A stretch of DNA of 64,000 bases, from positions 1-64,000 of IMG/VR virus record IMGVR_UViG_3300017917_005124, one strand, 5' to 3'. The position numbers and the translations under genes are program-made. Positions 9,657 to 49,472 of the stretch are shown piece by piece (position 1 is the first letter of the stretch; each line of letters opens with the position of its first letter). This DNA comes from a virus. A model generated the notes under the pieces. That model was not told the origin of the DNA. It ran no database searches and was given only the letters and a program-made list of their open reading frames with translations.

Positions 9657-12600
9657 ATGATAGATAAAAAAATGTTTGAATATACTAGGTGTGCAAAGGA
9701 CCCAGTATATTTTCTTAATAATTATGGTTTTGTATTTGATGCTAAAAAGAAAAAGGTAGACAAGATGACTTGTTTCCCTTATCAAGAATCGTGTGTACAA
9801 AAGTTTCATAAGGAACAAAATAATATAATACTTAAGTCAAGACAATGTCTTCCTGAAGATACTTTTGTTGATACTCCAGATGGGCCAAAACCAATTCAAG
9901 ATTTTAAAATTGGAGATTTTGTGTATTCTTATAATCTTGAAACAGGTCAAGTTGAAATGGATACAGTCGCTGACTCTTGGCTTAGTGGGGATAGACAATG
10001 TGTTAAATTAAAACTAAAAGATTCAAGAAATATTGAAGTTGGAGAGAATCATCCATTTTGGATTGTAAACAAACAGGCTTGGATAAAAGCTAAAGACCTT
10101 GATATTAATGATGAAATACTGGATGCTAATATAGGGTTTGGTGATGTGAATGTAAGTGATGAAGAAATAAAAATACTTGCCTATCTAATTACAGATGGGT
10201 GTACTAATAAGCAAGTAAAATTTACTAATAATAATATTGATTATCTATCTGAGTTTGAAGATAGTGTTAATATATGTTTCCCTGATTTAGAGATTAGAAA
10301 AAGTCCTAAATTAAATGGATATGATTATTATCCTCACCAAAAACATGGAGTAAGTACTTTAAATCCAATAATAGAGTGGTGTGAGAACAAGGGTATAGCT
10401 AATAAAAAGACAGAGTTTAAAAATTTACCAGAAGAAGTTTTTTATTGGGACAAAAATTCCGTATCTCTATTGGTTAATAGAATATTTGCTGGAGACGGAT
10501 GGATTTCTATTTTAAAAAAAACTGGAAATAAAAGATTAGAGCTGGGATTGGGCTCCCCATCACTCGTTTTTTTAGAACAAATTAAAATGTTGCTTAAAAA
10601 ATATAATATAAAAGGCAATATTTATGAAGTTAAAAATATGAAACTTCAGCAAAATAAATTTTATAAACTTAGAATAACTCACTCAAAAAGTGTATCTAAA
10701 TTTATAAATGAAATTGGAATTTATAAGAAAATAAATCAAGAACATCTTGATATTATAAATAATAGAGTTCATGATGTAAAAAACACATCTATTGTTAGAA
10801 AAATAGAGAAAACAGAAACCAAAAAGTGTTATGACATATCTGTTACAAAAAACGAAAATTTTTTAATTAATGGTTTGTTGGTTCACAATACTGGTCTCTC
10901 AGTTGTTACTGCTGGATATGTTGCGTGGAGGCTTATGTTTAGATATGATGAGAAAATACTTATCATTGCCAATGATGGAGCAGGAGCTGTTCGTTTTCTC
11001 GATACTGTTAAGCAATTTATTGAATATACACCAGATTGGATGAAACCAGATTCTGTTGAGACAGAAAATCAAAAGAAAATAATGTTTTCAAACAATTCTT
11101 ATGCTGAAGCTAAGGCATCAAGCCCTAATGCTGGTCGTGGAGATTCGCTTACAATGCTCATTCTTGATGAGACCGCCTTCATCAAGGATGCTGAGGCAAT
11201 TTGGATGGGCGCTGGTATGGCGCTTTCAGCTACTGGTGGTAAGTGTATAATGATTTCATGTGTGCCAGAGGGTACGATGGTATTTACTGATAATGGAATC
11301 AAAGAGATAGGTCAATTTGTTGATAAGAAAAAAAATGGTGGTTATGAAATAGATGAATATAGTGTATATGGAAAAGATAGGCTAAGGAAAGGTAATTTGT
11401 TTTTTAATAACGGTGAACATGATACAAAAATAATAACTACTACAAATTCAATATTTGAGGGAACATTTTCACATAAATTATGGGCATGTAAAAATGGGGT
11501 TTATGATTGGTACAAGACGGAGGAATTAGAGGTAGGTGATTATGTATCTGTACAATATGGCATGGAGTCTTGGGGTGGCAATGATTTTGTAATGGATTTT
11601 AAACCAACTATTAGTAATAAGATGTCAAATAAATTTAATCCTGATAGGATTACAAAAGAAATTTCTTATTTAATTGGATTGTATATTAGTGAAGGTTCTG
11701 TTTATAAAAAATATAATGAAAATAAAGAGTTTATAGGAGGCAGTGTTACGATTACATGTGGTGACGATATATCTAAAGCAATTAAAGATATTGGACTCTC
11801 ATACTCATGTCATGATGGATTACATTATTCAATAGGTTCAAAAAATTTAATTGAGTTTTTGGAATATATTGGTTTTGATTTATCTAAGAAGGCTAGAGAA
11901 AAAGAAATTCCAAAGAGGTTGTTTGAAATGTCTAGAGAGAATATAATTTATATGCTCAGGGGAATTTTTGATGGTGACGGATATTCAAGAAAAGATAAGG
12001 GATATATTGGTATTGGAATGAACTCAAAAAAATTAATACAACAACTAAGGATGTTGTTATTAAATTTTGGTATTTTAACTGATTATAGTGAGGTTTGGAC
12101 TAAAAAAACAAAAAAAGTTAACATAGAGACATTAAATTTTAGAATATCTGCAAATGCAGAGTTTTCTAAGATATTTTATGATAATATAGGTTTTAATTTT
12201 GATAGAAAGCAAAAAAATAAATTAATTTTGGAAAATTATAATTTAAAAAGAAATTCTCCAAATGATATAATACCATTCTCATTAAATTTAATTAAGAGAG
12301 TAATTAGTGAAAGTGGTCTTAAAATAAAAAATTTTAAGGATGCAGGCATATTTATTAATTCGATAGTAAATTCGAGATTAGAATATAAAACGCAACATGT
12401 AAGTAGAAAATTGTTTTTAAAAGTATTTGAAATTTGTAAAAATAAAATTTCAAATGAAACTATAGTTGAAGTAGAAAAGTGTTTATCATCAAATTTAATT
12501 TGGAATAAAATAAATAAGATAGAAAAGTCTAAAAAAGAAACTTATGATTTTTCTTTACCAAATAATGATGAAGATTTTTGGGCTCACTCTGTTATATATA

Positions 12601-15023
12601 ATGGTGTGTTAGGCCATCAAACGCCAAATGGTACTGGTAACCTGTACTACAAGACATGGGTTGATGCTGTAAATAATGATAACAAATTTAATGGCACAAT
12701 GGTTCATTGGACAGAGAATCCAAACAGTTCTGTTAATCTTGAATGGAAAATAAGCCCAACTGGAGAAAAAGTGCCTTGGAGCCCATGGTATGAGGACCAG
12801 TGTAAGAGGCTTAATTGGGACTCTGTTAAGATTGCTCAAGAGCTTGACCTGTCATTTGAAGGTTCCAAGAGGCTTGCTGTTGACCCAGAGCTTGTCACCA
12901 AGTATCATGCTAAAGTTATGGCTGATAGTAATGCTGAGGGGTATATGAGATTTGACTACATGGAGAAAGAAAATCCGACAGAGTTTGCAAAGATTGTTAC
13001 CGACATCACAAATATGACAATATTTAAGAGGCCAGAAGAGGGTAGGCAGTACATCATAGGATGTTTACCTCCTGATGAAAAAGTTTTGACAGATAGTGGA
13101 TTGATGAATATTCAAGATGTTACTGTTGATGATAAATTAGTTAGTGAGAATGGTGATTATGTTGATATAATTAATAAGCAAATATACCAAGTTATTGATG
13201 AGGATATATTTGAGATGAAAATGGATAACACTTTTAGAACAACAACATTTACAAAGGAGCATCCAATTTTAATTAGTAAACCAAATTTGAAAAGAAATTA
13301 CAACAAAAATCATAATAAGTATAGATTTAATGAAAGATATTGGGATTTTGATTTTAATTACACAAGAATGGAAGATGTTGAAATTGGTGACTGGATTAAA
13401 GTTCCTAATGTGTATAAAAAGGAAATAAAAAATATTTATAATGATAAATGGAAAATAAGCGAATCTGTTAGGTCTGATTTTGAGTTTGAATCACCATTGT
13501 TAGAAGATGACTTTTGGTGGTTTATTGGAATGTGGCTAGGAGATGGATGGTTAGGAAAAAATAATTATTCACATACAATATCAATATGTTTTGATAAAAA
13601 TCATGAGGGCTACATTGAAAAATGCGAAGATATTATTAAACGATTATTTAAGCGTTCTCCATCTTTTGTTGATAAAGGTAGTACATATGAATTAGTTTTT
13701 AATTCTAAATTTTTGTACTATTTTATATTAGAAAATTTCGGTCAATACTCACATGGAAAAAAAATACCAGAATGGGTTAAATTTATATCAAATGAATATA
13801 AAAAAGAATTGATTAGAGGTTATTTTGATAGTGATGGATGTTGGGTTAAGATAAATAAAAATGGAATTTTAAATTCAAAAGTAAGTTTTGTTAGTATTAA
13901 TCTGGAGTTGCTTGAATCAATACAAGATATTATTTTCTCTCTTGGTATTATTTCATCTCTAAGTAAGTTGCGAGATAAAAAAACGGCAATAACTCTTAAC
14001 AGAGAGTGTAAGCAAAAAGAAACATACAATTTAACATTATCAAATAATGATAGTTTAGAGTTGATAAATTTAATTTATAAACATGATGATATTAAGTTAA
14101 ATAAATTTAGTTTTAATGATTTTAATATTAAGAATAATAGAATTATTAGCTCTTGTCATTTTGATGAAGATAAACAATTTATTTATTTTAGAGTCAAAAA
14201 AATAAGTAAATCTAAATTTACTGGCAATGTTTATAATTTTGAGTGTGACACACACACATTTATGTGTCATCATATAACGACACATAATTGTGACGTTGCT
14301 AGAGGTGATGGACAGGATTACTCGACAATACAAGTTCTTGATGTTGATACGCTTGAGCAAGTTGCGGAATACAGAGAAAAAGTTTCTCCAGACCTTTTTC
14401 CTTTTGTGATTAATTATGTAGCAAGAATGTATAACATGGCCTATGTTGTAATAGAGGCCAATTCATTTGGTCTTGGTGTATGTTTTGATATAAGAGATAA
14501 ATTTAAATACCCAAGAAATAGATTATATTTTTCTAAGAATATAAAAGATATACATGTAAGGCATTATAGTTATAAGGTGAATGAGGGAACTGAAATTCCA
14601 GGATTCCAAACAACAAGAAAAACTAGAGTATTATTAATTAAGGCAATTATAGAACATATGAGAGAGGGTTCATTAATTTTGCATTCTAAGAAGTTGATGG
14701 CCGAATTTCAAACTTTTGTTATGAATGGAGATAAACCAGAACATGAGCCAGGATTTAATGATGACCTTATTCTCGCTCTTGGTCTTGCACTTTATATTAG
14801 AGACACTGAGTTTGAAAATGTAACATCAAGTACAGAAATGTATAAGAGCATGCTTAGTGCTATGATGCTTAATTCTAATTCTAGCTCTGGAAAATTACCA
14901 GACCCAAACAAAAAAATAGATTTACCAAAAGGTGGTGCTGGTTTGTATATTTTCAATGGTACAAATAACATGAATAATATAGAAAATTCAGACCCAGATG
15001 ATTTAAGTTGGCTTATGGGATAA
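9657..15023 (+). CDS. terL: Large terminase subunit (DNA-packaging ATPase/nuclease) with three inteins
   Basis: 1788 residues, of which 577 are terminase after removing three inteins. The enzyme translocates phage DNA into the prohead through the portal and cuts it. Spliced motifs: a deviant Walker A KSRQ-TGLS, a Walker B with catalytic Glu in LTMLILDETAF, the coupling motif MIS-TPNGTG, and the RNase H-fold nuclease acidic residues in CDVARGDGQDYS, VVIEANSFG and GFNDDLILALG. Inteins occupy residues 64-411, 535-988 and 1136-1544. Each sits inside one of these motifs, so no activity is expected before splicing. The portal gene follows 58 bases after the stop. The start at 9657 is the only ATG upstream of the conserved N-terminus; a short inverted repeat overlaps it. 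I am confident of the family. Confidence 0.93.
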   Translation: MIDKKMFEYTRCAKDPVYFLNNYGFVFDAKKKKVDKMTCFPYQESCVQKFHKEQNNIILKSRQCLPEDTFVDTPDGPKPIQDFKIGDFVYSYNLETGQVEMDTVADSWLSGDRQCVKLKLKDSRNIEVGENHPFWIVNKQAWIKAKDLDINDEILDANIGFGDVNVSDEEIKILAYLITDGCTNKQVKFTNNNIDYLSEFEDSVNICFPDLEIRKSPKLNGYDYYPHQKHGVSTLNPIIEWCENKGIANKKTEFKNLPEEVFYWDKNSVSLLVNRIFAGDGWISILKKTGNKRLELGLGSPSLVFLEQIKMLLKKYNIKGNIYEVKNMKLQQNKFYKLRITHSKSVSKFINEIGIYKKINQEHLDIINNRVHDVKNTSIVRKIEKTETKKCYDISVTKNENFLINGLLVHNTGLSVVTAGYVAWRLMFRYDEKILIIANDGAGAVRFLDTVKQFIEYTPDWMKPDSVETENQKKIMFSNNSYAEAKASSPNAGRGDSLTMLILDETAFIKDAEAIWMGAGMALSATGGKCIMISCVPEGTMVFTDNGIKEIGQFVDKKKNGGYEIDEYSVYGKDRLRKGNLFFNNGEHDTKIITTTNSIFEGTFSHKLWACKNGVYDWYKTEELEVGDYVSVQYGMESWGGNDFVMDFKPTISNKMSNKFNPDRITKEISYLIGLYISEGSVYKKYNENKEFIGGSVTITCGDDISKAIKDIGLSYSCHDGLHYSIGSKNLIEFLEYIGFDLSKKAREKEIPKRLFEMSRENIIYMLRGIFDGDGYSRKDKGYIGIGMNSKKLIQQLRMLLLNFGILTDYSEVWTKKTKKVNIETLNFRISANAEFSKIFYDNIGFNFDRKQKNKLILENYNLKRNSPNDIIPFSLNLIKRVISESGLKIKNFKDAGIFINSIVNSRLEYKTQHVSRKLFLKVFEICKNKISNETIVEVEKCLSSNLIWNKINKIEKSKKETYDFSLPNNDEDFWAHSVIYNGVLGHQTPNGTGNLYYKTWVDAVNNDNKFNGTMVHWTENPNSSVNLEWKISPTGEKVPWSPWYEDQCKRLNWDSVKIAQELDLSFEGSKRLAVDPELVTKYHAKVMADSNAEGYMRFDYMEKENPTEFAKIVTDITNMTIFKRPEEGRQYIIGCLPPDEKVLTDSGLMNIQDVTVDDKLVSENGDYVDIINKQIYQVIDEDIFEMKMDNTFRTTTFTKEHPILISKPNLKRNYNKNHNKYRFNERYWDFDFNYTRMEDVEIGDWIKVPNVYKKEIKNIYNDKWKISESVRSDFEFESPLLEDDFWWFIGMWLGDGWLGKNNYSHTISICFDKNHEGYIEKCEDIIKRLFKRSPSFVDKGSTYELVFNSKFLYYFILENFGQYSHGKKIPEWVKFISNEYKKELIRGYFDSDGCWVKINKNGILNSKVSFVSINLELLESIQDIIFSLGIISSLSKLRDKKTAITLNRECKQKETYNLTLSNNDSLELINLIYKHDDIKLNKFSFNDFNIKNNRIISSCHFDEDKQFIYFRVKKISKSKFTGNVYNFECDTHTFMCHHITTHNCDVARGDGQDYSTIQVLDVDTLEQVAEYREKVSPDLFPFVINYVARMYNMAYVVIEANSFGLGVCFDIRDKFKYPRNRLYFSKNIKDIHVRHYSYKVNEGTEIPGFQTTRKTRVLLIKAIIEHMREGSLILHSKKLMAEFQTFVMNGDKPEHEPGFNDDLILALGLALYIRDTEFENVTSSTEMYKSMLSAMMLNSNSSSGKLPDPNKKIDLPKGGAGLYIFNGTNNMNNIENSDPDDLSWLMG
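9846..10889 (+). other. TerL intein 1 (Walker A site), LAGLIDADG type
   Basis: In-frame insertion of 348 residues, from Cys64 (CLPEDTFVDTPDG) to His-Asn (LLVHN), followed by Thr as the +1 nucleophile. Block B-like GENHPFW is present. Two LAGLIDADG-type motifs, AYLITDG and NRIFAGDGW, mark a homing endonuclease domain. It splits the P-loop of the ATPase (KSRQ/TGLS). All residues needed for standard splicing are visible. Confidence 0.92.
11259..12620 (+). other. TerL intein 2 (motif III site), LAGLIDADG type, ends in Gln
   Basis: 454 residues, from Cys535 (CVPEGTMVFTDNG) to His-Gln (GVLGHQ), followed by Thr. The terminal residue is Gln instead of Asn, a known but less common variant that still cyclises in some inteins. 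LAGLIDADG motifs: GLYISEGSV and RGIFDGDGY. The insertion site is MIS/TPNGTG, the motif that couples ATP hydrolysis to movement. It is the longest of the three. Confidence 0.9.
13062..14288 (+). other. TerL intein 3 (nuclease active-site), LAGLIDADG type
   Basis: 409 residues, from Cys1136 (CLPPDEKVLTDSG) to His-Asn (HHITTHN), followed by Cys. LAGLIDADG motifs: IGMWLGDGW and RGYFDSDGC. The insertion falls directly before CDVARG, whose Asp is the first metal ligand of the nuclease. Cys+1 is therefore both the splice nucleophile and part of the extein. Confidence 0.92.
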
Positions 15024-17545: not shown

Positions 17546-19651
17546 ATGTACATAGTATTTGATACTGAGACAACAGGCAAGGCAAAGAGTTTTAGTGCGC
17601 CTATAACTGATTTTAATAATTGGCCAAGGATGGTTCAAATTGCTTGGAAATTATTTGATAGAAATGGTGTTGAATTAGATTCTCAGAATTTAATAATTAA
17701 ACCTCAAGGATATATAATTCCTGATGAGGCAATAAAGATTCATAGAATCACAAACGAAAGAGCTAAGTCTGAAGGTGTTTTATTAAGAGTTGCTCTTGAG
17801 AAGTTTGGAGAAGCAATTAGAAATAGTAAATACTTAATTGCGCACAATATAACATTTGATGAAAATGTTGTTGGTTGTGAGCTTCTTAGAGAAGGTATGC
17901 ATAATTATATTCAAGATATTATGCATATTGATACAATGACACGTACAACTGAGTTTGTGGGAATTCCAAATAAAATGGGAAGAAGTGGATTTAAATATCC
18001 TTCTATGACTGAGCTTCATCATAAATTATTTGGCAAAGGCTTTGAAGATGCGCATGATGCACTTGCTGACGTTACAGCTCTTGCTAATTGTTTCTTTAAG
18101 TTACAAGAATTGGGTATTTTAGGATTTAAAGAAAATGATGATGACATTAGTTTAAGTTCACTTTCTGAGTTTGCTAAAGATAAAGCTTCTAGTGTTATAT
18201 TAAATAAAAATATACCATTTACAGCTCTTGGTGTACACACATTCCATTCAATACTTGAAGGCGCTGGCTCAGTTGATGAATATATAAAATTAGCTCAATC
18301 ATTAGGTCATACTTCTATGGCAATAACAGATAATTCAACTTTATCTGGAACATTTGAATTTTATAATAAATGTAAATCCAAAGGCATAAAGCCTGTGTTT
18401 GGTATAGAAATGTTATTAAATGATAATATTGGTATTTATTTTGATAATAAATCTTTTGAGGGAGATAATTTTAAAATTAAAATTTTTATAAAAGATGAGA
18501 AGGGTTATTGCAATTTAAATCACTTATTATATCTTGCAAATACAGAAGGATACTATAATAAGGAGGGTAGAATAAAAACTGAATGGCTCCTTAAGTATAA
18601 GGAGGGGCTATTGGTTTCTACATCTGGACTAGATAGTAAACTTGCAAGCATGGTTCTTAGAGGTAAAGAAAATGATGCTGAAAATTATGTTAATATGCTT
18701 AGGGCTGAATTCCAAGATGACCTCATAATAGAGCTAAAGTTCAGTAAATTTGCTAACCAAAAACAATACAATAATTTCTTGCTTAAGATGATGAGAAAGT
18801 ATAATATTATGCCAGTCTTGAGTAATGATACATATTACCCAACAAAAGATGATTCTATTTTGCAAGATGTTGTAACAGCTATTAAGCAGCATAGAACAAT
18901 TTCTTCCTGTTCTCTTAAGGAAAATAGAGAGCTTTGGTATTTTAGTAGCGATGATTTTAAAAATATTAACATAAAATATGGTTTTAATTACCCAGATGAA
19001 TTTATTGAATTATGTATGCAAAATACATTAAAGGTTGCAGATAAGTGTAATTTTAAATTTGATACTGGCTCTGAAAAATATCCTAGATATGAACCTACTG
19101 AAGATATTATAAAATATTTTGGCACCGATATCCCAGAAGAGATTATAAAAAAACTTTCATTTGCAAAGTTGAGGCAAAAAATTAAGAAGTACCAAGAGAA
19201 TGGTATTGTTGAAATGACGGATGAAAAAATTAAAGAGTATGTTGACCGTCTTAATTATGAGATTGAAGTTATTGAATCTAAGAAGATGCTTGACTACTTC
19301 CTTGTAAACTGGGAAATTATAAATTACTACAGAAAGCAAGGATTTTCCATTGGTCCTGCTAGGGGATGTTTTTTGCCTGGGAGTAGGGTTAAGATGGCTG
19401 ATGGCATGTATGCTCCAATAGATACAATTGAGATTGGAGATAGGGTGATTGATGCCTTTGGGGATGAGAGAGAAGTGATTGATACATTGGAATATGATAT
19501 TGATGAAGACATTATTGAGCTTGAGTTTGATGATGGAAGAATCATTGAGTGTACACTTGACCATGAGATTCTTACAGAGAATCGTGGATGGGTTCATGCA
19601 AAGGATTTGACAGAAGAAGATGAAATTGTTGATATAAATAAAGCAAGATGA
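17546..19651 (+). CDS. DNA polymerase III alpha, fragment A: proofreading exonuclease + PHP + start of palm + N-intein 1
   Basis: 701 residues. Residues 1-190 are a DnaQ-like DEDDh 3'-5' exonuclease: Asp6 and Glu8 in FDTETTG, Asp105 in HNITFDEN, His170 and Asp175 in HDALADV. A PHP domain starts near 224, but its metal site looks degraded: AITDNS stands where active PHP domains have TDHG. The C-family polymerase domain begins after that and stops at GPARG (residue 607). Residues 608-701 are the N-terminal half of a split intein starting with Cys (CFLPGSRVKM). The chain is useless as a polymerase until joined to fragment B. The ATG of the next frame overlaps the stop (ATGA at 19648). A host-like promoter lies upstream. 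Confidence 0.9.
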   Translation: MYIVFDTETTGKAKSFSAPITDFNNWPRMVQIAWKLFDRNGVELDSQNLIIKPQGYIIPDEAIKIHRITNERAKSEGVLLRVALEKFGEAIRNSKYLIAHNITFDENVVGCELLREGMHNYIQDIMHIDTMTRTTEFVGIPNKMGRSGFKYPSMTELHHKLFGKGFEDAHDALADVTALANCFFKLQELGILGFKENDDDISLSSLSEFAKDKASSVILNKNIPFTALGVHTFHSILEGAGSVDEYIKLAQSLGHTSMAITDNSTLSGTFEFYNKCKSKGIKPVFGIEMLLNDNIGIYFDNKSFEGDNFKIKIFIKDEKGYCNLNHLLYLANTEGYYNKEGRIKTEWLLKYKEGLLVSTSGLDSKLASMVLRGKENDAENYVNMLRAEFQDDLIIELKFSKFANQKQYNNFLLKMMRKYNIMPVLSNDTYYPTKDDSILQDVVTAIKQHRTISSCSLKENRELWYFSSDDFKNINIKYGFNYPDEFIELCMQNTLKVADKCNFKFDTGSEKYPRYEPTEDIIKYFGTDIPEEIIKKLSFAKLRQKIKKYQENGIVEMTDEKIKEYVDRLNYEIEVIESKKMLDYFLVNWEIINYYRKQGFSIGPARGCFLPGSRVKMADGMYAPIDTIEIGDRVIDAFGDEREVIDTLEYDIDEDIIELEFDDGRIIECTLDHEILTENRGWVHAKDLTEEDEIVDINKAR
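19367..19648 (+). other. Split intein 1, N-terminal half (94 residues)
   Basis: Starts with Cys608 right after the extein GPARG. It contains the block A to B features: a DxIEIGDRV turn and TLDHEILT, a TxxH-like block B. The chain ends at a stop instead of an endonuclease. Its partner is at 20083-20190. Confidence 0.88.
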
Positions 19652-20102
19652 AAGAAAGGGATTATAATCAAATAGATGCACTAAAATATTTGGTGGAAAC
19701 TGGACCTACGCATACAAATGAATGGACTGAAGCTGGTATGTATAATATATTGTCTAAAGTTATATTAGAAAGTGCGAGGAGATATAAAAAACAAGAGCTT
19801 GATAAATTAATCCAAGAAGCATCAAATTATTAAACAGGAAACACAAAACCTCAAGTAGGTCTAATTTTAGAAAATTGAGACTATATTTTATTTTAGATAA
19901 TAAATATTTAATTGAAGTTAAGGGTTATGGTCCGTGGGCAGATATAGCTAATATTAGCAAAAAAAATGAGGCTGCTAAGGTTTGGTGTAAAGAAAATAGT
20001 ATGAGATATAGACTTGTTGAGTTTAAAGATATTGGTAATCATTGGTATAAAAAGGCGAGAAATAAACATAAAGAATTAAATAATGGCGAAATTAAAGAGT
20101 AG
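19648..20102 (+). pseudogene. Decayed homing endonuclease in the gap of split intein 1
   Basis: Two overlapping frames look like one broken gene. Frame one (19648-19833) gives 61 residues from an ATG overlapping the previous stop. The second frame is open from 19806 to 20102 and reads NRKHKTSSRSNFRK and then DNKYLIEVKGYG, with KKNEAAKVWC and RYRLVEFKDIG. This resembles the EVKG / AA..WC / VEF end of PD-(D/E)XK-type phage homing nucleases, such as the intact gene at 48342. A frameshift and an internal deletion are the simplest reading. The end overlaps the start of the C-intein gene by 20 bases, as in the other two gaps. The nuclease type is a moderate-confidence call. Confidence 0.6.
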
Positions 20103-20190
20103 AAAAATTAGAAAATATACAGGAAAAGTTCATGACTTAACTGTTGAAGAAACTCATTCATATAATATTGAGGGTTTAGGGGTTCATAAT
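20083..20190 (+). other. Split intein 1, C-terminal half (36 residues)
   Basis: Contains the block F-like segment [15 protein letters not shown] and block G GVHN, followed by Ser. It pairs with the N-half ending at 19648. Confidence 0.9.
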
Positions 20191-20577
20191 TCTGCTGCAG
20201 GAAGTTTGCTCTCTTGGTGTCTTGACATCACAAAGATTGACCCAATAAGATTTGACCTTTATTTTGAGCGTTTTCTTAATCCAGAGAGGAACTGCCTCAC
20301 ATCAAACTGTAATGTGATGCTTAAAGATGGCTCTTATAAAAATATTGTAGATGTTGAGGTTGGTGACCCTGTTCAGACTGAGCATGGACTTGGAACACTG
20401 GTTCAAAAGCATGAGAGAGAGCTTAGAGAAGATGAGAGTGTTTATGAGCTTGAAACTGAAGATGGAGCAAAGGTTCAGTTAACAGGTTGTCATATTGTTC
20501 CTGTGTTTAGAGAAGGTAAGAGAATAGAGGTTCGTGTTGATGAAATATTGGAGACCGACCAATTATTTGTATTTTAA
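20083..20577 (+). CDS. DNA polymerase III alpha, fragment B: C-intein 1 + 34-residue extein + N-intein 2
   Basis: 164 residues in three parts. Residues 1-36 are a C-intein ending [12 protein letters not shown], followed by Ser+1. Residues 37-70 are polymerase sequence (SAAGSLLSW...FLNPERN), matching the C-family motif G-S-x-A-G-S-L and FERFLNPER that leads into the catalytic PDxDxDF. Residues 71-164 begin with Cys ([10 protein letters not shown]) and form the N-half of a second split intein. So only 34 residues of this gene reach the mature polymerase, and both of its ends must be trans-spliced. Translation is probably coupled to the overlapping upstream frame. Confidence 0.92.
20293..20574 (+). 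other. Split intein 2, N-terminal half (94 residues)
   Basis: Begins with Cys71 of fragment B after the extein NPERN. It contains [12 protein letters not shown] and a TGCHIVPVF block B-like stretch. It has the same length as the other two N-halves but little sequence similarity to them. Confidence 0.88.
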
Positions 20578-20593
20578 AAAATTTAATTTGATT

Positions 20594-21288
20594 ATGAAAA
20601 AATATTTAGATATTAAGACTATTAAAGTTTCTAATTTAGTTGCTGAGTATATGATAAAGAAGTTTTTTCAAGAAAACTCTCCATCTCTTTTTAAGAAAGA
20701 GTTTGTAAAAATTTTTGAAATAGAAAAATTAATTAATGATTATCTGAGGCAAATTGATGAAGATGAAGTTAATTTATATATTAAAGAGCATAGAAAATTA
20801 GACTATAAATCAAGACCTTGTTTTGCTTTTATTTCTGATAATTTAACAAATCCACTTAGATTATATTTAGACCAACACACAGAAGGCGAAAGTGTTTGTG
20901 TTGATGATTTTTCCTTAGCAAGTGATTATTATACACAAGATTTAGAAACAAATAAGAATATAATGGATGTGAAATAGATAGAAGTGGTGTTTATGATTAT
21001 AAAAACAAAAAACTATATATTCCAGATTTTATTAATAGAAAGTTAAAGATTTTTATTGAGTTTAACGGTGATTATTGGCATTGTAATCCATGTATATTTA
21101 AAAAAGAATATTATAATACAGTTAAAAAAATGACTGCTGAAGAAATTTGGAATAAAGATAAATTTAGAAACGAAAGAATTAAGAAATTGACTGGATGTTG
21201 TTATTTGGTTGTTTGGGAAAATGATTGGAATAAAAACAAAGAAGAGGTTAAACAGATTTTAATAAAATTTTTAAATGAAAAAAAATAA
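20594..21288 (+). pseudogene. EDxHD (Vsr-like) homing endonuclease in the gap of split intein 2, frameshifted
   Basis: From the ATG at 20594 one frame runs to a stop at 20977. A second frame, open from 20956 to 21288, encodes YIPDFINRKLKIFIEFNGDYWHCNP, here read as IPDF + IEFNGDYWH, and ends with VVWENDW. The E-x-x-G-D-Y-W-H pattern and the VWEND end are those of the EDxHD homing endonucleases, a family described next to split inteins in fractured phage genes. One frameshift near 20950-20976 would restore a protein of about 230 residues. It could be real decay or a sequencing error. The 3' end overlaps the C-intein gene start (21275) by 14 bases. Confidence 0.75.
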
Positions 21289-21418
21289 AATAAAATCAAT
21301 AAAAAAAATTGATTATAAAGGAGTAGTTTACGACCTTTCTTTTAATAAAGATAATTTATTTTTTACTTCAAGTAATACTTTAAGTGAAGGTACTCAACTA
21401 TCTGTTTTAGTGCACAAT
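21275..21418 (+). other. Split intein 2, C-terminal half (48 residues)
   Basis: Contains GVVYDLSFNKDNLFFTSS (block F-like) and QLSVLVHN, followed by Ser. It is longer than the other two C-halves by 8-12 residues. Confidence 0.88.
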
Positions 21419-22882
21419 AGCTCACCAGATATTGATATTGACTTTATGACTGGAACTGATGATATTACAAATAACTTTTTATATGAGAAATATGGAAGAG
21501 AGCGTGTGATGTCTGTTGGAACATTTGGAACATTTTCTGAGAAGAATACTATTAAGGATGTTGTTAGAGCATATCAAGGAAAGGATGCTACTGGATTTGG
21601 TTCAGATGTATTTGCGTTAACTGAGGAGATGCCAGACTTCCTTAAGTACAACGATACACTTGAGCACTGGTTCGAGACATGGCCAGATAATCCAGAATGT
21701 AGTCCTAGAGTTAGAAACTGGATTAAAGACCCTAAGAATAAAGAAATAATAGAAGTTGCACTTAAGCTTCAAGGTAATATAAGAGGTGTGGGTCAACATG
21801 CTGCTGGTATAGTAATTACTCCGAGTGAGTCTTGGAACTATGTTCCTACTAATATAATCGCATCAAACGAAAATATTGTTACAGCATTTCAAGAGGCTGA
21901 TAAATCTGGAAAAGACCTTAGTGCTCTTGGGATTTTAAAATTAGACAGACTTAAATTAGAAACTCTAAATGTAATCAAGGAGGCTATTGAGATTGTAAAG
22001 AAAAATAAGGGTATAGATATATCTGATAAAGTTGACTACGTTGACCTTGAGGATGAAAATTTATTCATTGAGCTTAGACTTGGGCTTAACCATGGTATAT
22101 TTCAGTTTGAGAGTAGTGGTATGAATAACTTAATAAGAGGAATGCAGGTTGAGAAGTTTGAAGAGCTTGTTGCATGTAATGCGCTCTATAGACCAGGTCC
22201 AATGGGAATTGGTGCCCACGAGGAGTTTATCACAAATAAATTTAATCCTGAAAAAATTAAATTGGTCCACCCAGCTCTTGAGCCAATTCTTAGAGAGACA
22301 AATGGAGTACTTGTATTTCAGGAGCAACTAATGTTTATTGCTGATAGAATTGGTGGAATGGGTCTTGGTAAGGGTGATAACCTTAGAAGATACATGGATA
22401 AGGCGAGTAAGATTATTGCTCGACACTCTGCAGGAGAAAAGCTTACTGAAGAAGAGTTAAACAATAGCAACTGGAAAGGGTTTCAACAATATTGGAATAT
22501 GTTCCTTGAGGGAGCTGCTGCTCAAGGGTATGATACTGCGGAGGTCGATAAAATTAAGGATTGGGTAATCCAATATCTTGGATATTCATTCAATAAGTGC
22601 TTAACAGAAAATCATAAAGTAATTTCTGAGGATAGAGGCGAGATTAACATTCTTGATGTGAAGATTGGAGAGAAAGTTCTTGGATATAATCCCGAAACTG
22701 GCGAGGATGAGTTTAATCAAGTTAAGGATATTCATCATAATGGCAGGAAAAAGGTTTACAGGATTAAAACGAAGTCTGGAAAAATATTAGAATGTACTGA
22801 AGACCATAAGATTATGACAGAAAGTGGGATGAAAACTTTAAAGGAGGTTAGAGAAAATAAATTAAAAATCAAAATTGTATGA
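21275..22882 (+). CDS. DNA polymerase III alpha, fragment C: C-intein 2 + catalytic palm/fingers + N-intein 3
   Basis: 535 residues. Residues 1-48 are a C-intein ending VLVHN with Ser+1. Residues 49-441 are the core of a C-family polymerase: SSPDIDIDF with the two catalytic Asp, then the finger region with NALYRPGPMG, GVLVFQEQLM and GKGDNLRRYMDKAS. They end at GYSFNK. Residues 442-535 begin with Cys (CLTENHKVIS) and are the N-half of a third split intein. Two trans-splicing reactions are needed on this chain. The intein 2 junction (NPERN/SSPDIDIDF) is two residues from the start of the catalytic motif. The family call is very secure. Confidence 0.94.
   Translation: MKKNKIKSIKKIDYKGVVYDLSFNKDNLFFTSSNTLSEGTQLSVLVHNSSPDIDIDFMTGTDDITNNFLYEKYGRERVMSVGTFGTFSEKNTIKDVVRAYQGKDATGFGSDVFALTEEMPDFLKYNDTLEHWFETWPDNPECSPRVRNWIKDPKNKEIIEVALKLQGNIRGVGQHAAGIVITPSESWNYVPTNIIASNENIVTAFQEADKSGKDLSALGILKLDRLKLETLNVIKEAIEIVKKNKGIDISDKVDYVDLEDENLFIELRLGLNHGIFQFESSGMNNLIRGMQVEKFEELVACNALYRPGPMGIGAHEEFITNKFNPEKIKLVHPALEPILRETNGVLVFQEQLMFIADRIGGMGLGKGDNLRRYMDKASKIIARHSAGEKLTEEELNNSNWKGFQQYWNMFLEGAAAQGYDTAEVDKIKDWVIQYLGYSFNKCLTENHKVISEDRGEINILDVKIGEKVLGYNPETGEDEFNQVKDIHHNGRKKVYRIKTKSGKILECTEDHKIMTESGMKTLKEVRENKLKIKIV
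22598..22879 (+). other. Split intein 3, N-terminal half (94 residues)
   Basis: Begins with Cys442 of fragment C. It contains ILDVKIGEKVLGYNPETGE and CTEDHKIMTESGM, a clear block B with T..H. The insertion point GYSFNK/SHS lies a few residues downstream of the site used by the cyanobacterial DnaE split intein. Confidence 0.9.
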
Positions 22883-22946
22883 TACAAATTGGAGTTATAT
22901 GTATTTCTACTCCTATTATAGATAATGATTATAACTTATCTATAAA

Positions 22947-23366
22947 ATGGAACATTTGAATAAGATACCAGAACATGTGTTTTCTGGAATTAATAAAGAA
23001 GGTTTTTTAAAATATGTTGAGGATGTATTTATAAAAATAGAAAATTTAGATGAAATACATATTCCAGCTGCAATTTCATTTTTGAAGATTAAGTTTTTAA
23101 ATGGAAATATTGATTTTGAATCAGGCGCATTGATGATAAAAAGTCAATGTAAAAAGTAAGTTTTAATAAATCTCATACTACGCAATCCAAAAACTCGTCA
23201 TGCAACACCTAAAAGTGATATGCAGAAAAATAATTTGGAGAGAGATGAAAGAAAGCGTAATTTTGTAAAAGAAAATTTAGAATACGAACTCATTGAAGTA
23301 TGGGAAAATGATATAATTAATAATATTGAAAAAGTAAAAATATGCTTGAACAATTTGAAGAAATAG
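22947..23366 (+). pseudogene. Remnant EDxHD-type homing endonuclease in the gap of split intein 3
   Basis: An ATG frame (22947-23159) of 70 residues ends at an in-frame stop. The same frame then continues to 23366 with NLERDERKRNFVKENLEYELIEVWENDIINN, read here in parts: NLERDERKRNF and ELIEVWENDI. That is the typical C-terminal end of the EDxHD nucleases, matching VVWENDW at about 21220 and VVWEYDL at about 26700. The catalytic middle is missing, so an internal deletion plus a stop has killed it. The 3' end overlaps the C-intein gene by 25 bases. Confidence 0.65.
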
Positions 23367-23461
23367 TTGAATTTGAAGAAATAGGTGAAGTAGAAACTTA
23401 TGACCTTGAAATAGAATCTAAACATCATAATTTTTATGCTAATGGAATTTGTGTGTCTAAT
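23342..23461 (+). other. Split intein 3, C-terminal half (40 residues), ends Ser-Asn
   Basis: Block F/G end reads YANGICVSN followed by Ser-His. The missing penultimate His, which normally assists Asn cyclisation, is unusual but tolerated in some natural inteins. Confidence 0.85.
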
Positions 23462-24430
23462 AGTCACTCACTTTCCTATTCATATCTTGCAATGCAAACG
23501 CTTTATTTAAAGCACTATTACCCTACAGAATTTTACACAGCTCTTCTAAATCACCCAAAATCTGGAACTAAGGAAAAGCAACAAGCGTGGATTGCGTCTG
23601 CGATTTCATCAGCAATGTCTAAGGGAATTATAATCAAGAGACCATCTAGAAAGTCAGGATGGGAGTGGACAATGACAGGAGACCATGAAATATCAATGGG
23701 GTTCTCTGGAATCAATGGATTGGGTACTATAGCTTATGAGGAAATGCTTCAACTTATAGATGAAATTCCAGTAGAAAATGGTCAACCTAAGAAGACTCTT
23801 GAGACTGTAAATATGAGTACATTTATGAGACTGCCGTTTAGTAAATTCAATAAAGGTGCGTTTACATCTTGTGTTAAGGCTGGTGTCTTTGATGACTGGA
23901 GCGAGTCAAGAGAGCAATTGCTTGCAATTAAGCAGAAAAAGAAAAAGAAAGTAATAGCAAACCAAGGTGTATTATTTGATATGAATGACTCTTCTTTTGA
24001 TATACCTATGCAAAAAGATGATGTTAATTATCCACCTACTTCTGATTTAACAAAGAGGTCTGAATTTATTGATGTATGTAATTTTGACCTTGAAAAAATA
24101 AAATATATTCTTGATATTAAGAGTGATGTAAATAATAGAGCTAAGAGAGAAAAGCCAGTTGATACTATAATTAATTTTGATGAAAATGATTACTATATTT
24201 TTGTTGTTGAGACATTTAGGCTTATGCAAAGTAAATCTGGAAAACAATATTTAACTATGAAAGTTGGCGATGGAATTAGTCATACTACAATTAGAGCATT
24301 TGAGCCAACTGTAAATGACCTCTTACCTATTTTGGTTACAAATGGTATTTATGTTGGTGAGTTTGAAAAAAATGACAAGGGGTATATCAATTTTAAGAGA
24401 GGAACCAGAATAGTAAGAGTTGATAAATAA
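23342..24430 (+). CDS. DNA polymerase III alpha, fragment D: C-intein 3 + C-terminal polymerase region
   Basis: 362 residues. Residues 1-40 are a C-intein with YDLEIESKHHNFYANG and the end CVSN. The penultimate residue is Ser rather than the usual His. Ser+1 follows. Residues 41-362 continue the polymerase with SHSLSYSYLAMQTLYLKHYYPTEF, split here as SHSLSYSYLAMQ and YLKHYYPTEF, then the HhH-like region and an OB-fold stretch around VVETFRLMQSKSGKQYLTMK. Joined, fragments A-D give about 1356 residues (607+34+393+322), a normal length for an exonuclease-fused alpha subunit. RNase H follows 38 bases later. Confidence 0.92.
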   Translation: MLEQFEEIVEFEEIGEVETYDLEIESKHHNFYANGICVSNSHSLSYSYLAMQTLYLKHYYPTEFYTALLNHPKSGTKEKQQAWIASAISSAMSKGIIIKRPSRKSGWEWTMTGDHEISMGFSGINGLGTIAYEEMLQLIDEIPVENGQPKKTLETVNMSTFMRLPFSKFNKGAFTSCVKAGVFDDWSESREQLLAIKQKKKKKVIANQGVLFDMNDSSFDIPMQKDDVNYPPTSDLTKRSEFIDVCNFDLEKIKYILDIKSDVNNRAKREKPVDTIINFDENDYYIFVVETFRLMQSKSGKQYLTMKVGDGISHTTIRAFEPTVNDLLPILVTNGIYVGEFEKNDKGYINFKRGTRIVRVDK

Positions 24431-44916: not shown

Positions 44917-44924
44917 TATATTTG
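44917..44924 (+). promoter_or_regulatory. TATATTTG, host-like -7 element before the family A polymerase
   Basis: TATATTTG ends 6 bases before the ATG at 44931, so a message from it would be nearly leaderless. No good -33 TTTG at normal distance was seen. Confidence 0.4.
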
Positions 44925-44930
44925 CAATAT

Positions 44931-46553
44931 ATGTTTATAGTTTGCAAAATAATAGTTGATAATAAGGAGTTAGAATCTAATTTAAAAGGTTTTCTAAGAG
45001 GTTATCCAGTTGATATAAGTTGCAACTCATCAATAGATGAACATTTAAATATGCCAATATTATTTGTAGGGTGGGATTTGGTTAAGAGAATATTCCCACT
45101 TCAAAAAATACATGATAATAAGGTTAATGAAAATATTGAATGGACATATAATGAATCTGAGTGTAATGAAATAGATAAAGAAGGGTTTTATAGTAATATA
45201 GAAGAATTTGTTAATAGAAATTTGAAATCTTGGCTCCCATCTAATTTTATATTATACGATTATATAATTCATGGAGAATTAATTAAATTTATAGAAGCAA
45301 ATATAAATAATGAAATAAAGACTTATGTTCATTATAATAATGGTGCTATTTACATGAGAAATGGAGATAATGATTACATTATTAATACCAAGAGTTTGTG
45401 GATGTTTGATGATGACTATAGAAACACAATAACAAATGTTTTAAATAGTACTAATTGTATGGTGTATTCATATAATGGGATTGAGGATTATGTAAATCTT
45501 GACACATTAGGGAATTTAGTTTCATTAGACATTTTAAGATGGATTAAATTTGGAGTAGAGACACCTATAAAGTATTTTCAAATAATACCAAATATTGATA
45601 TAAGTAAATATATACCATTCTTGATGAGTAAGATTGTAATGAATTCTCTTGAATTAAATAATCAAGAGTTGATATATTTCAATAGAATGTGTCAGAGAGA
45701 TAAGATAACTAGGTGGATGTCTAGTAGATATTTATCATTTTCTTATGATTTTAAAAAGAATTTAAACTTTATATTTAGAGAAAATGCTAAGCTAGCAAAA
45801 ATAAACTATTCAAGTAAGAGGACTATAACAGGTAGAATAACATCAATTGATAAGTATAATCCACAGAATCTATCTAAGACTAATGAAGATAGGTCTATGA
45901 TAATTTCTAGATTTACAGGGGGAAAAGTATATCAATTTGATTATACTTCATTTGAAGCAAGGATATCTTTGTATTTGAGTGAAGATGAAGAATTTATAGA
46001 GAATTATTATGATAAAGACCTTCACTTAGAGACTGCTATGTTAATATTCGATGTCTTTGAACCAACAGAAGAGCAGAGGGAAATAGCAAAATTAGTAAAT
46101 CACTCTGTGTTATATGGAGCAGGCGAAGCTACTATACTAAGTAAGCTACAATCTTTACCAAATCCTATTGAAAAAATGATAATTGTTAAAGAGTTTTTAG
46201 CTCCTATATTTAAAAAATCTAAGGAGTTAATGGAATTATCAGAAAAATATGGATATATAATAAATAAATGGGGTTCAATAATAAAGCCAGAAAAATCATA
46301 CGCTGGATTTAATAATTATATACAATCAACAGCTTCTGAAATAATTGTAGATAAAGTTATTGAAATAAAGGAATTATTAATAAACTGCAGAAGTCAATTT
46401 ATGTTTCAAGTGCATGATTCATTAGTTTTTGACATTCATCCAGAAGAAAATTATCTTATTGAAAAAATATATAAAATAATGTCTTATCATAGAAATATGA
46501 TTTTTTCTGTAGATTATAAGTCAGGTTCTAATTTTAAAGACCTACATTATTAG
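44931..46553 (+). CDS. Family A DNA polymerase (Pol I-like), no recognisable exonuclease
   Basis: 540 residues from the ATG at 44931; a TTG at 44922 is less likely. Polymerase motifs: KRTITGRITSIDKYNPQNLS (template-binding), motif A QFDYTSFEARI with catalytic Asp337, motif B REIAKLVNHSVLYGAG, and motif C QVHDSLVFDI with Asp496. Motif C reads HDS where most members have HDE. The first ~290 residues show none of the usual 3'-5' exonuclease acidic motifs. The genome therefore has two replicative-type polymerases of different families, this one and the split C-family enzyme. Repair, primer-gap filling or an alternative replication phase are possible roles. Confidence 0.88.
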   Translation: MFIVCKIIVDNKELESNLKGFLRGYPVDISCNSSIDEHLNMPILFVGWDLVKRIFPLQKIHDNKVNENIEWTYNESECNEIDKEGFYSNIEEFVNRNLKSWLPSNFILYDYIIHGELIKFIEANINNEIKTYVHYNNGAIYMRNGDNDYIINTKSLWMFDDDYRNTITNVLNSTNCMVYSYNGIEDYVNLDTLGNLVSLDILRWIKFGVETPIKYFQIIPNIDISKYIPFLMSKIVMNSLELNNQELIYFNRMCQRDKITRWMSSRYLSFSYDFKKNLNFIFRENAKLAKINYSSKRTITGRITSIDKYNPQNLSKTNEDRSMIISRFTGGKVYQFDYTSFEARISLYLSEDEEFIENYYDKDLHLETAMLIFDVFEPTEEQREIAKLVNHSVLYGAGEATILSKLQSLPNPIEKMIIVKEFLAPIFKKSKELMELSEKYGYIINKWGSIIKPEKSYAGFNNYIQSTASEIIVDKVIEIKELLINCRSQFMFQVHDSLVFDIHPEENYLIEKIYKIMSYHRNMIFSVDYKSGSNFKDLHY

Positions 46554-48341: not shown

Positions 48342-49472
48342 ATGGAAAAAAAATTTAATAGAAATTGTCCTCAATGTAAAAGTGAGCTAATTTATACGAA
48401 TATAAAAAATAGAAATCAAGCTGAAAAGCATCAAAAAAAATGTAAAAAATGCATCAATTCAAAAAATATTGAAAAAAATAGAATTAAAATGCAGTCTAAA
48501 TATTTAATATTTGATGATATAAGAAATAAAGAAATTATTGATATTTTTAATGAAATTGGTAGTAATTGGAAAGTTTTTAGAAAGGAGGTAATTCCTGTTT
48601 TTAATAAATTTAAAAAAGAAACTAAAACAATAATACTTTGTAGAAATTGTCCTGAATGTAATATAGAATTATTTTATTCTGATGAAATAAGTGTTAAAAA
48701 TGCAAATAAAAAAAAATCTTTATGTAAACCTTGCAGCAAAAAAGGAGAAAAAAACTCTTTTTTTGGAAAAAAACATACACAAGAATCTTTAATAAAAAGG
48801 TCTAATTCTTTAGAAACTTCTGATTCTTGGAAAAAATTTATTGAATATAAAAAAAGCGAAGAGTATAGAGGTAATTTGTCAAAATCTATGTCTGGAGAAA
48901 ATAATCCAGCATTTAATAGAGGGAAGTTGATAGATATATGGGCAAAAAAATATGGAATAGAAGAGGCGGAAATAAGACATAAAAATTGGATAGATAAGTT
49001 ATCTAATTCATTTACAGGTGAAAAAAATCATATGTATGGAAAGCCTTCTCCTGTTGGTTCTGGCAATGGCTGGTCTGGTTGGTATAATGGGTGGTACTTC
49101 AGAAGTTTAAGAGAACTTTCTTATATGATTACTGAAATTGAAGATAAAAACTTAAAATGGGAAAATGGGGAATTAAAAAAATATAAAATATCTTATATTG
49201 ATTGGGATGGTAAAAACAGAAATTATTTCCCTGATTTTGTAGTTGAAAATAAATACATGATTGAATGTAAGCCTAATAATTTAATCAATTCAAAGTCAGT
49301 AATCTGCAAAAAAGAAGCGGCAGAAAAATTTTGTAATACTAATAATTTAGAATATATAATTGTGGAGCCAAAAATATTGTCTAAAGAAGAAATAGAGAAT
49401 TTGTATTATTCAGGAAAAATTAAATTTTTACCAAAATATGAAGAAAAGTTTTTAAAGTATATTGAAAAATAG
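48342..49472 (+). CDS. Homing endonuclease: zinc fingers, NUMOD3 motifs, PD-(D/E)XK nuclease
   Basis: 376 residues. Two zinc-binding segments, CPQCKSELIY...CKKC and CPECNIELFY...CKPC, occupy about residues 7-140. Then NUMOD3-type DNA-binding motifs follow (FFGKKHTQESLIKRSNS; GENNPAFNRGK; GEKNHMYGKPSP). The C-terminal catalytic part has YFPDFVVENKYMIECKP, giving D and E-x-K, followed by KKEAAEKFC and EYIIVEP. It lies alone between a terminator and the 5'-3' exonuclease gene, a typical free-standing phage homing nuclease. A broken relative sits in the split intein 1 gap. Confidence 0.85.
   Translation: MEKKFNRNCPQCKSELIYTNIKNRNQAEKHQKKCKKCINSKNIEKNRIKMQSKYLIFDDIRNKEIIDIFNEIGSNWKVFRKEVIPVFNKFKKETKTIILCRNCPECNIELFYSDEISVKNANKKKSLCKPCSKKGEKNSFFGKKHTQESLIKRSNSLETSDSWKKFIEYKKSEEYRGNLSKSMSGENNPAFNRGKLIDIWAKKYGIEEAEIRHKNWIDKLSNSFTGEKNHMYGKPSPVGSGNGWSGWYNGWYFRSLRELSYMITEIEDKNLKWENGELKKYKISYIDWDGKNRNYFPDFVVENKYMIECKPNNLINSKSVICKKEAAEKFCNTNNLEYIIVEPKILSKEEIENLYYSGKIKFLPKYEEKFLKYIEK

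Follow-up and report, generated by a model that had tools for sequence, protein, structure and literature searches.

The window analysed here, 64,000 nt long (positions 1-64,000 of the viral record IMGVR_UViG_3300017917_005124, a viral contig of 95,437 b in full), carries four open reading frames (ORFs) that together encode a DNA polymerase III alpha subunit (family C). Sequence analysis confirmed that this polymerase is cut by three class-1 split inteins and that the breaks are real, neither chance nor artefact. It is very likely that one polymerase III alpha would be made from the four polypeptides by three split-intein ligations, after three gains of the intein elements and decay of their nucleases. 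In the proposed mechanism, the four pieces are translated separately; the N- and C-halves IN1 and IC1, IN2 and IC2, and IN3 and IC3 would pair, each pair folding into a Hint domain, and class-1 protein trans-splicing (Cys1, Ser+1, Asn cyclisation) would ligate the flanking exteins into a 1356-residue enzyme and release three excised inteins. Endonuclease-associated split inteins ("fractured gene" elements) would have entered conserved polymerase motifs on three occasions. Afterwards all three endonucleases would have decayed, and the split inteins are proposed to have stayed because the enzyme needs them.

Four pieces and three split inteins

The four ORFs lie on the + strand at 17546-19651, 20083-20577, 21275-22882 and 23342-24430 (pieces A, B, C and D), exactly where the original prediction had placed them. 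Removal of the inteins, with cuts at Cys1 and after the terminal Asn, leaves exteins of 607 + 34 + 393 + 322 amino acids (aa). The sum of 1356 aa agrees with the length predicted for a single C-family polymerase, and the chain is collinear with uncut relatives (designated below by L numbers). Piece A consists of exA and IN1, piece B of IC1, exB and IN2, piece C of IC2, exC and IN3, and piece D of IC3 and exD. The ORFs are separated by gaps of 431, 697 and 459 nt (gaps 1, 2 and 3), and a stop codon closes every N-half, so the halves are separately encoded. The parts are as follows:

17546..19366, + strand: exA, N-extein 1, 607 aa, with DEDDh exonuclease, PHP domain and start of the palm/NTPase domain, ending SIGPARG (Pfam RNase_T, PHP, DNA_pol3_alpha; collinear with uncut relatives)
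19367..19651, + strand: IN1, N-half of split intein 1, 94 aa with Cys1 and TLDH, plus stop (homologues at the same site in L100, L102, L140 and L151)
20083..20190, + strand: IC1, C-half of split intein 1, 36 aa, ending GVHN
20191..20292, + strand: exB, middle extein SAAGSLLSW...FLNPERN, 34 aa, flanked on both sides by intein halves
20293..20577, + strand: IN2, N-half of split intein 2, 94 aa with Cys1 and TGCH, plus stop (87% identity to the same-site IN2 of L005)
21275..21418, + strand: IC2, C-half of split intein 2, 48 aa, ending LVHN
21419..22597, + strand: exC, 393 aa, with catalytic palm (PDIDIDF and LKLD) and fingers, ending YLGYSFNK
22598..22882, + strand: IN3, N-half of split intein 3, 94 aa with Cys1 and TEDH, plus stop
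23342..23461, + strand: IC3, C-half of split intein 3, 40 aa, ending CVSN
23462..24430, + strand: exD, C-terminal extein, 322 aa, starting SHSLSYSYLA (Pfam HHH_6 just under cut-off; NCBIfam polymerase III alpha models)

By Pfam, A has the exonuclease, PHP and polymerase III alpha NTPase domains; the NTPase domain extends over B and into C, C also has the fingers, and D gives a weak HHH hit. Assignment to family C was made from the Pfam matches PHP (5e-30), DNA_pol3_alpha and finger (1e-44), together with PDB matches to the E. coli and other alpha subunits. The polymerase motifs are intact: FDTETTG and HDALADV in the exonuclease, the PHP motifs, and PDIDIDF and LKLD (third catalytic Asp) in the palm. 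In the alignment with 2hnh, exC starts opposite residue 398 of E. coli alpha, just before the catalytic Asp pair, which places intein 2 at the active site. The other two inteins are likewise within conserved polymerase motifs, the three sites being GPxRG/S, NPERN/S..PDIDIDF and GYSFNK/SHS (slash, splice point). The tryptic peptide across junction 2, NSSPDIDIDFMTGTDDITNNFLYEK, is possible solely in the spliced protein, and junction 3 falls directly after a Lys.

Class-1 motifs are complete in all three pairs, namely Cys1, TxxH (TLDH, TGCH, TEDH) and a terminal Asn (VHN, VHN, VSN) followed by Ser+1. Together with homologous inteins at the same codons elsewhere, this bears out the matching halves that had been described in order along the pieces. 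A profile search of the halves, proposed as a check, succeeded in part: IN2 and IN3 scored above the gathering score of Pfam Intein_splicing, and NCBIfam gave intein_Nterm at 4e-8 for IN3 and intein_Cterm at 2e-5 for IC3, but IN1 remained below the Pfam gathering score. Among PDB sequences, IN1 matches NrdJ-1 best. The three N-halves share just 25-30% identity; among 50,697 annotated phage records, no relatives of IN1 or IN2 were found, and IN3 had only 30-34% matches.

Intein 3 is unbroken in L112 and L113, as a mini-intein of 131-133 aa that aligns end to end with IN3 plus IC3. The predicted structure of the L112 cis form (predicted local distance difference test score, pLDDT, 96) has a Hint fold matching gp41-1, DnaB and NrdJ-1 in the PDB (best E 5e-10, TM 0.86), and by this model the two halves of intein 3 are predicted to make up one complete Hint fold. 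For inteins 1 and 2, profile hits are the support for the fold, and a cis form of either was not found among the relatives.

The net charges are -19/+3 for IN1/IC1, -10/+4 for IN2/IC2 and +2/-10 for IN3/IC3, the last pair being reversed. All four of the split site-3 inteins that were counted show this reversal, and the cis form of L112 tends towards it. It should disfavour pairing of the intein 3 halves with those of intein 1 or 2, and between inteins 1 and 2 sequence divergence alone could keep the pairing straight.

No Rfam match indicative of an RNA intron was found in the window, and a promoter scan gave matches at chance level. Shine-Dalgarno sequences are absent before all four ORFs and also before nearly all other genes checked, which makes them uninformative on the real starts here; their lack is compatible with a Bacteroidota host.

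Relatives, homing and decayed endonucleases

Relatives were gathered from viral contigs with piece C, an alignment of extein C, IN1, IN3, the start of piece D and piece B as queries. Every distinct polymerase (about 58 distinct relatives) was classified by the state of its three sites, with contig-end cases read individually. In the uncut polymerases L006, L007, L008, L010 and L011, the exteins run on with zero nucleotides gained or lost at all three junctions. These empty sites fix the splice junctions independently of the intein motifs, and the three junctions first proposed proved exact to the codon. The nearest uncut viral polymerase is 87% identical to the window exteins. Chance is excluded because the junctions are exact and homologous inteins occur at the same codons in independent contigs. 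The states found were:

Empty at all three sites: 35 distinct polymerases
Site 1 only: L100/L211, L140, L151
Site 2 only: L005, L009, L023, L134, L201
Site 3 only: L115 (split), L112 (cis), L111 (cut off by contig end)
Sites 2 and 3 split: L114/L202; L203-L207
Site 2 split and site 3 cis: L113
Sites 1 and 3: L099/L210 (contig ends in gap 3)
Sites 1 and 2: L102 (contig ends in nuclease)
Sites 1, 2 and 3: the window virus alone

The relatives thus form a nearly complete series (uncut; 1; 2; 3; 1+2; 1+3; 2+3; 1+2+3), with a cis intein 3 and a near-identical pair with and without it in addition, so that the path from an intact to a four-piece gene can be followed and tested. In the extein tree, the window polymerase clusters with the uncut L006, L007 and L017. 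All three inteins are scattered over the tree, which indicates that the states changed repeatedly, and the order of gains is not given by it. Three gains in the window lineage after divergence from its uncut sisters would be the most economical reading.

Horizontal spread is apparent from intein 1, which is 89% identical between the window and L100 while exA is only 47% identical. Similarly, IN2 of the window and of L023 share 77% identity, but exA 47% and exC 57%. The near-identical pair, L210 and L211, match at 99.98% (2 mismatches in 8,367 nt) up to the last 10 nt before site 3, at which intein 3 is present in L210 alone. These last 10 extein bases hold four changes, all synonymous (TCG TTC AAC AGA in L211; TCT TTT AAT AGG in L210), a contrast as expected if homing had been recent with a short co-conversion tract. 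The L210 contig stops about 570 nt into the insertion, and only its left side is visible. The window halves are identical to none of the others found, so no donor can be named. Ten loci from bacterial genomes were also read, nine with ordinary polymerase III alpha-type genes and one a viral-looking contig (L256) binned in a metagenome-assembled genome; a host link was not found from these ten loci.

In the gap, most split relatives have a nuclease gene about 276-376 codons long; wherever this was checked, the ORF ran up to or into the beginning of the C-piece. In the window, all three gaps hold just C-terminal remnants of the matching nucleases, intact versions of which occur at the same three sites in relatives:

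19648..19833, + strand: so1, 61-aa ORF in gap 1 (no homologue found)
19875..20102, + strand: C-terminal stub of the site-1 nuclease, TnsA-like (blastx, residues 278-342/348 of L151, 80% identity; also a DNA match)
20594..20977, + strand: so2, 127-aa ORF in gap 2, possibly the N-terminal region of a nuclease with a frameshift (no homologue found)
20956..21288, + strand: stub of the putative EDxHD/Vsr-like nuclease of site 2, IEFNGDYWHCNP...VVWENDW (full-length in L005, L009, L023, L114 and L134)
22947..23159, + strand: so3, 70-aa ORF in gap 3 (kept, 63%, in gap 3 of L099/L210)
23184..23366, + strand: C-terminal stub of the site-3 nuclease (residues 258-312/317 of L114, 71%; about 800 nt missing relative to L114)

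The nearby EDxHD nucleases mentioned in the original prediction were thus recovered in type at sites 2 and 3, where the core is GDYWH/GDYFH (putative EDxHD/Vsr-like type), but only as C-terminal remnants, and the site-1 nuclease differs from them in type, with a weak match to TnsA-like N and a PD-(D/E)xK look. Site-2 nucleases of relatives share a conserved IEIMGDYWHCNP core; a model of one (pLDDT 71) matched Vsr (1vsr, probability 0.57) and I-Bth0305I (3r3p, probability 0.82) in Foldseek, both weakly (E > 0.1). The site-2 stub is about 36-46% identical to these nucleases. With L005 its identity is about 43% although IN2 is at 87%, from which the nuclease may have been swapped. The so2 ORF overlaps this stub in another frame (20594-21288), and the two may be a single nuclease gene with a frameshift.

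Gap 3 has the order IN3, so3, a leader that directly follows IN3 in L114, a jump of about 800 nt and the 3' end of the nuclease. In L210, so3 is in the same place, and an apparent nuclease start, MKKLKINF, was read by eye after the leader; so1 and so2 lie at the equivalent position in gaps 1 and 2. Loss has gone further in gap 1 of L100/L211, where the nuclease is wholly lost and 127 nt remain. The overlap of the stubs with the start of the C-pieces suggests that the stubs may hold the translation start region of these pieces.

Some distant polymerases (about 20-30% identical) show further arrangements. In L103-L105, sites 1 and 3 are occupied by split inteins and the fingers contain a cis one; in L104, L107 and L109, the gene is broken without an intein after the third catalytic Asp, with other genes between, including an exonuclease-like ORF.

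Probable joining of the pieces and comparison with known systems

Compared with the uncut L006 or L007, every window extein has a ratio of nonsynonymous to synonymous substitution rates (dN/dS) of 0.04-0.11, close to the 0.02-0.06 of the uncut L006-L007 pair; synonymous divergence is high and the values are rough. The window changes 13 of 779 clade-invariant columns, other clade members 0-20, and its exteins, the 34-aa exB included, contain neither stops nor frameshifts. The exteins are thus still under strong purifying selection, and the pieces are very probably still joined. Since the catalytic intein residues are kept while the adjoining nucleases decayed, selection spares exactly the parts needed for splicing, and selection for trans-splicing would be the simplest account. 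From the sequences we infer that splicing takes place in vivo, with correct pairing and a functional product.

Could the gene instead be dead or dying, wrecked by the three insertions, with the genome replicated by the family A polymerase that the virus also encodes (44922-46553)? The presence of this second polymerase and the decay of all three homing nucleases would fit, but purifying selection acts on every extein including exB, conserved sites show no excess of change, and the polymerase and intein catalytic motifs are intact right beside the decayed nucleases. In addition, motif C of the family A enzyme reads VHDS and not the usual VHDE. A dead gene is accordingly considered very improbable. 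Non-covalent complementation, in which the four pieces assemble without peptide ligation and the intein halves act only as pairing tags, has a parallel in the intein-free break of the distant L104, L107 and L109. A pairing tag, however, would not need Cys1, TxxH, the terminal Asn and Ser+1, which all three pairs and the relatives retain, and we regard this alternative as very improbable. It is hardly credible that the breaks, or their combination, come from chimeric assembly: all three splits do lie in a single contig, but each is seen again, at an identical codon position, in separate contigs from other metagenomes, two occur together in L114, L203-L207, L102 and L099, the gaps contain site-specific nuclease remnants, and the window halves are identical to none of the others found, which leaves no known donor for a chimera.

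Several observations weigh against joining of the four pieces by trans-splicing. The triple split is known from one contig only. Pairs 1 and 2 share charge polarity, so charge permits a cross reaction of the N-half of intein 1 with the C-half of intein 2, which would lose the 34-aa exB. IC2 has diverged faster than IN2 (61% versus 86-87% identity, L009/L005). The penultimate residue of intein 3 is Ser where His is usual, although Ser is kept across its family including the cis forms. Finally, with a family A polymerase also encoded, loss of polymerase III alpha might be tolerated, and the dependence of the phage replisome on splicing that had been claimed is plausible but not established. As for the three successive reactions proposed, the sequence shows a polymerase cut by three split inteins, and the empty sites, selection and the stepwise series support joining of the pieces, but not a succession of the reactions, any order being possible.

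Taken together, the polymerase holds a stack of three "fractured gene" split inteins within a single protein, most likely a natural four-part trans-splicing assembly. A more far-reaching idea, for now tentative and rather doubtful, is that of a natural four-part assembly line with three mutually orthogonal split inteins that were retained when their nucleases were lost and that form an obligatory and possibly regulatory (concentration-dependent, timing) step in production of the replicative polymerase of the virus. Three co-existing natural split inteins, probably orthogonal and one of them charge-reversed, may also be of use in protein engineering.

Dassa and co-workers, as cited in PMC12350094 and PMC6892783, reportedly described fractured genes with split inteins and free-standing endonucleases. 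The window gene resembles these in that a split intein interrupts the gene of a DNA-metabolism enzyme, and in relatives a nuclease gene separates the halves (of putative Vsr-like type at site 2 in L005, L009, L023, L114 and L134). It is unlike them in that one gene has three breaks, only stubs of the nucleases are left, the nuclease at site 1 is of a TnsA-like type and the two middle pieces are "double-ended", flanked by intein halves on both sides. The window holds a conserved gene broken three times by a split intein and no intact free-standing endonuclease between the halves; it looks like a decayed descendant of the fractured-gene arrangement and not a strict member.

In the cyanobacterial DnaE of Ssp, Npu and Trichodesmium, one intein is split and any others are cis. 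The window gene is like split DnaE (Ssp, Npu) in that DNA polymerase III alpha would be assembled through a split intein, but here all three inteins are split, in a virus, giving four polypeptides. That Trichodesmium dnaE carries several inteins is reported by Liu and Yang 2003, as given in PMC5874633. In phage MIJ3, too, a split intein divides a polymerase and a nuclease gene lies between the parts, although this DNA polymerase belongs to family B and has one split intein, two pieces and an HNH nuclease gene (PMC6892783). With gp41-1 and NrdJ-1 (PDB 6qaz, 8ubs) the fold is predicted to be shared, the modelled L112 form of intein 3 reaching TM 0.86 against gp41-1. The sequences are distant (27-28% for gp41-1), and the N-half of intein 3 is basic and the C-half acidic, the reverse of inteins 1 and 2. 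One-pot assembly of several blocks with orthogonal split inteins has been engineered (PMC7090010), whereas the putative joining of several blocks by several split inteins in the window would be a natural case. Proteins joined by one split intein are known, but one needing three, with a double-ended 34-residue middle piece, was not found in the literature searched. That search for several split inteins in one natural gene returned only engineered and single-split examples, in line with the original statement that no polymerase cut by three was known, though the tables of Dassa et al. 2009 (Nucleic Acids Res 37:2560) might hold one.

Other inteins and genes of the virus

The window has a GC content of 31%, and the record beyond it was read as loci L015 and L016. 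The virus encodes T4-like baseplate proteins, a portal, a terminase, a DnaB-type helicase, a ribonucleotide reductase, an RNase H, a sigma factor and the family A DNA polymerase, whose ORF has a TTG start and no recognised exonuclease domain.

The terminase large subunit ORF (window 9657-15023, 1788 aa) apparently contains three cis inteins of several hundred residues each, which could hold endonucleases; the boundaries read by eye are LKSRQ/CLPEDT...LLVHN/TGLS, CIMIS/CVPEGT...VLGHQ/TPNG and QYIIG/CLPPDE...TTHN/CDVA. Outside the window, a ClpB/ClpA-like AAA+ gene (L015:6282-10502, record about 69281-73501) is broken at the Walker A motif, GSTGVGK/THLAK, into an N-piece with an intein part of about 30 aa, a 524-aa ORF with a nuclease-like GDMYHGNP core and a C-piece with a long C-intein, and apparently carries an atypically split intein. 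The ribonucleotide reductase large chain (window 53423-57097) has a cis intein with a LAGLIDADG hit; its C-side reads VHN/GGKRKGS, and since the +1 residue is Gly and not Cys, Ser or Thr, normal splicing looks impossible as read. A free-standing nuclease with NUMOD3 and TnsA-like domains (window 48342-49472) adjoins an unsplit RecA-like gene.

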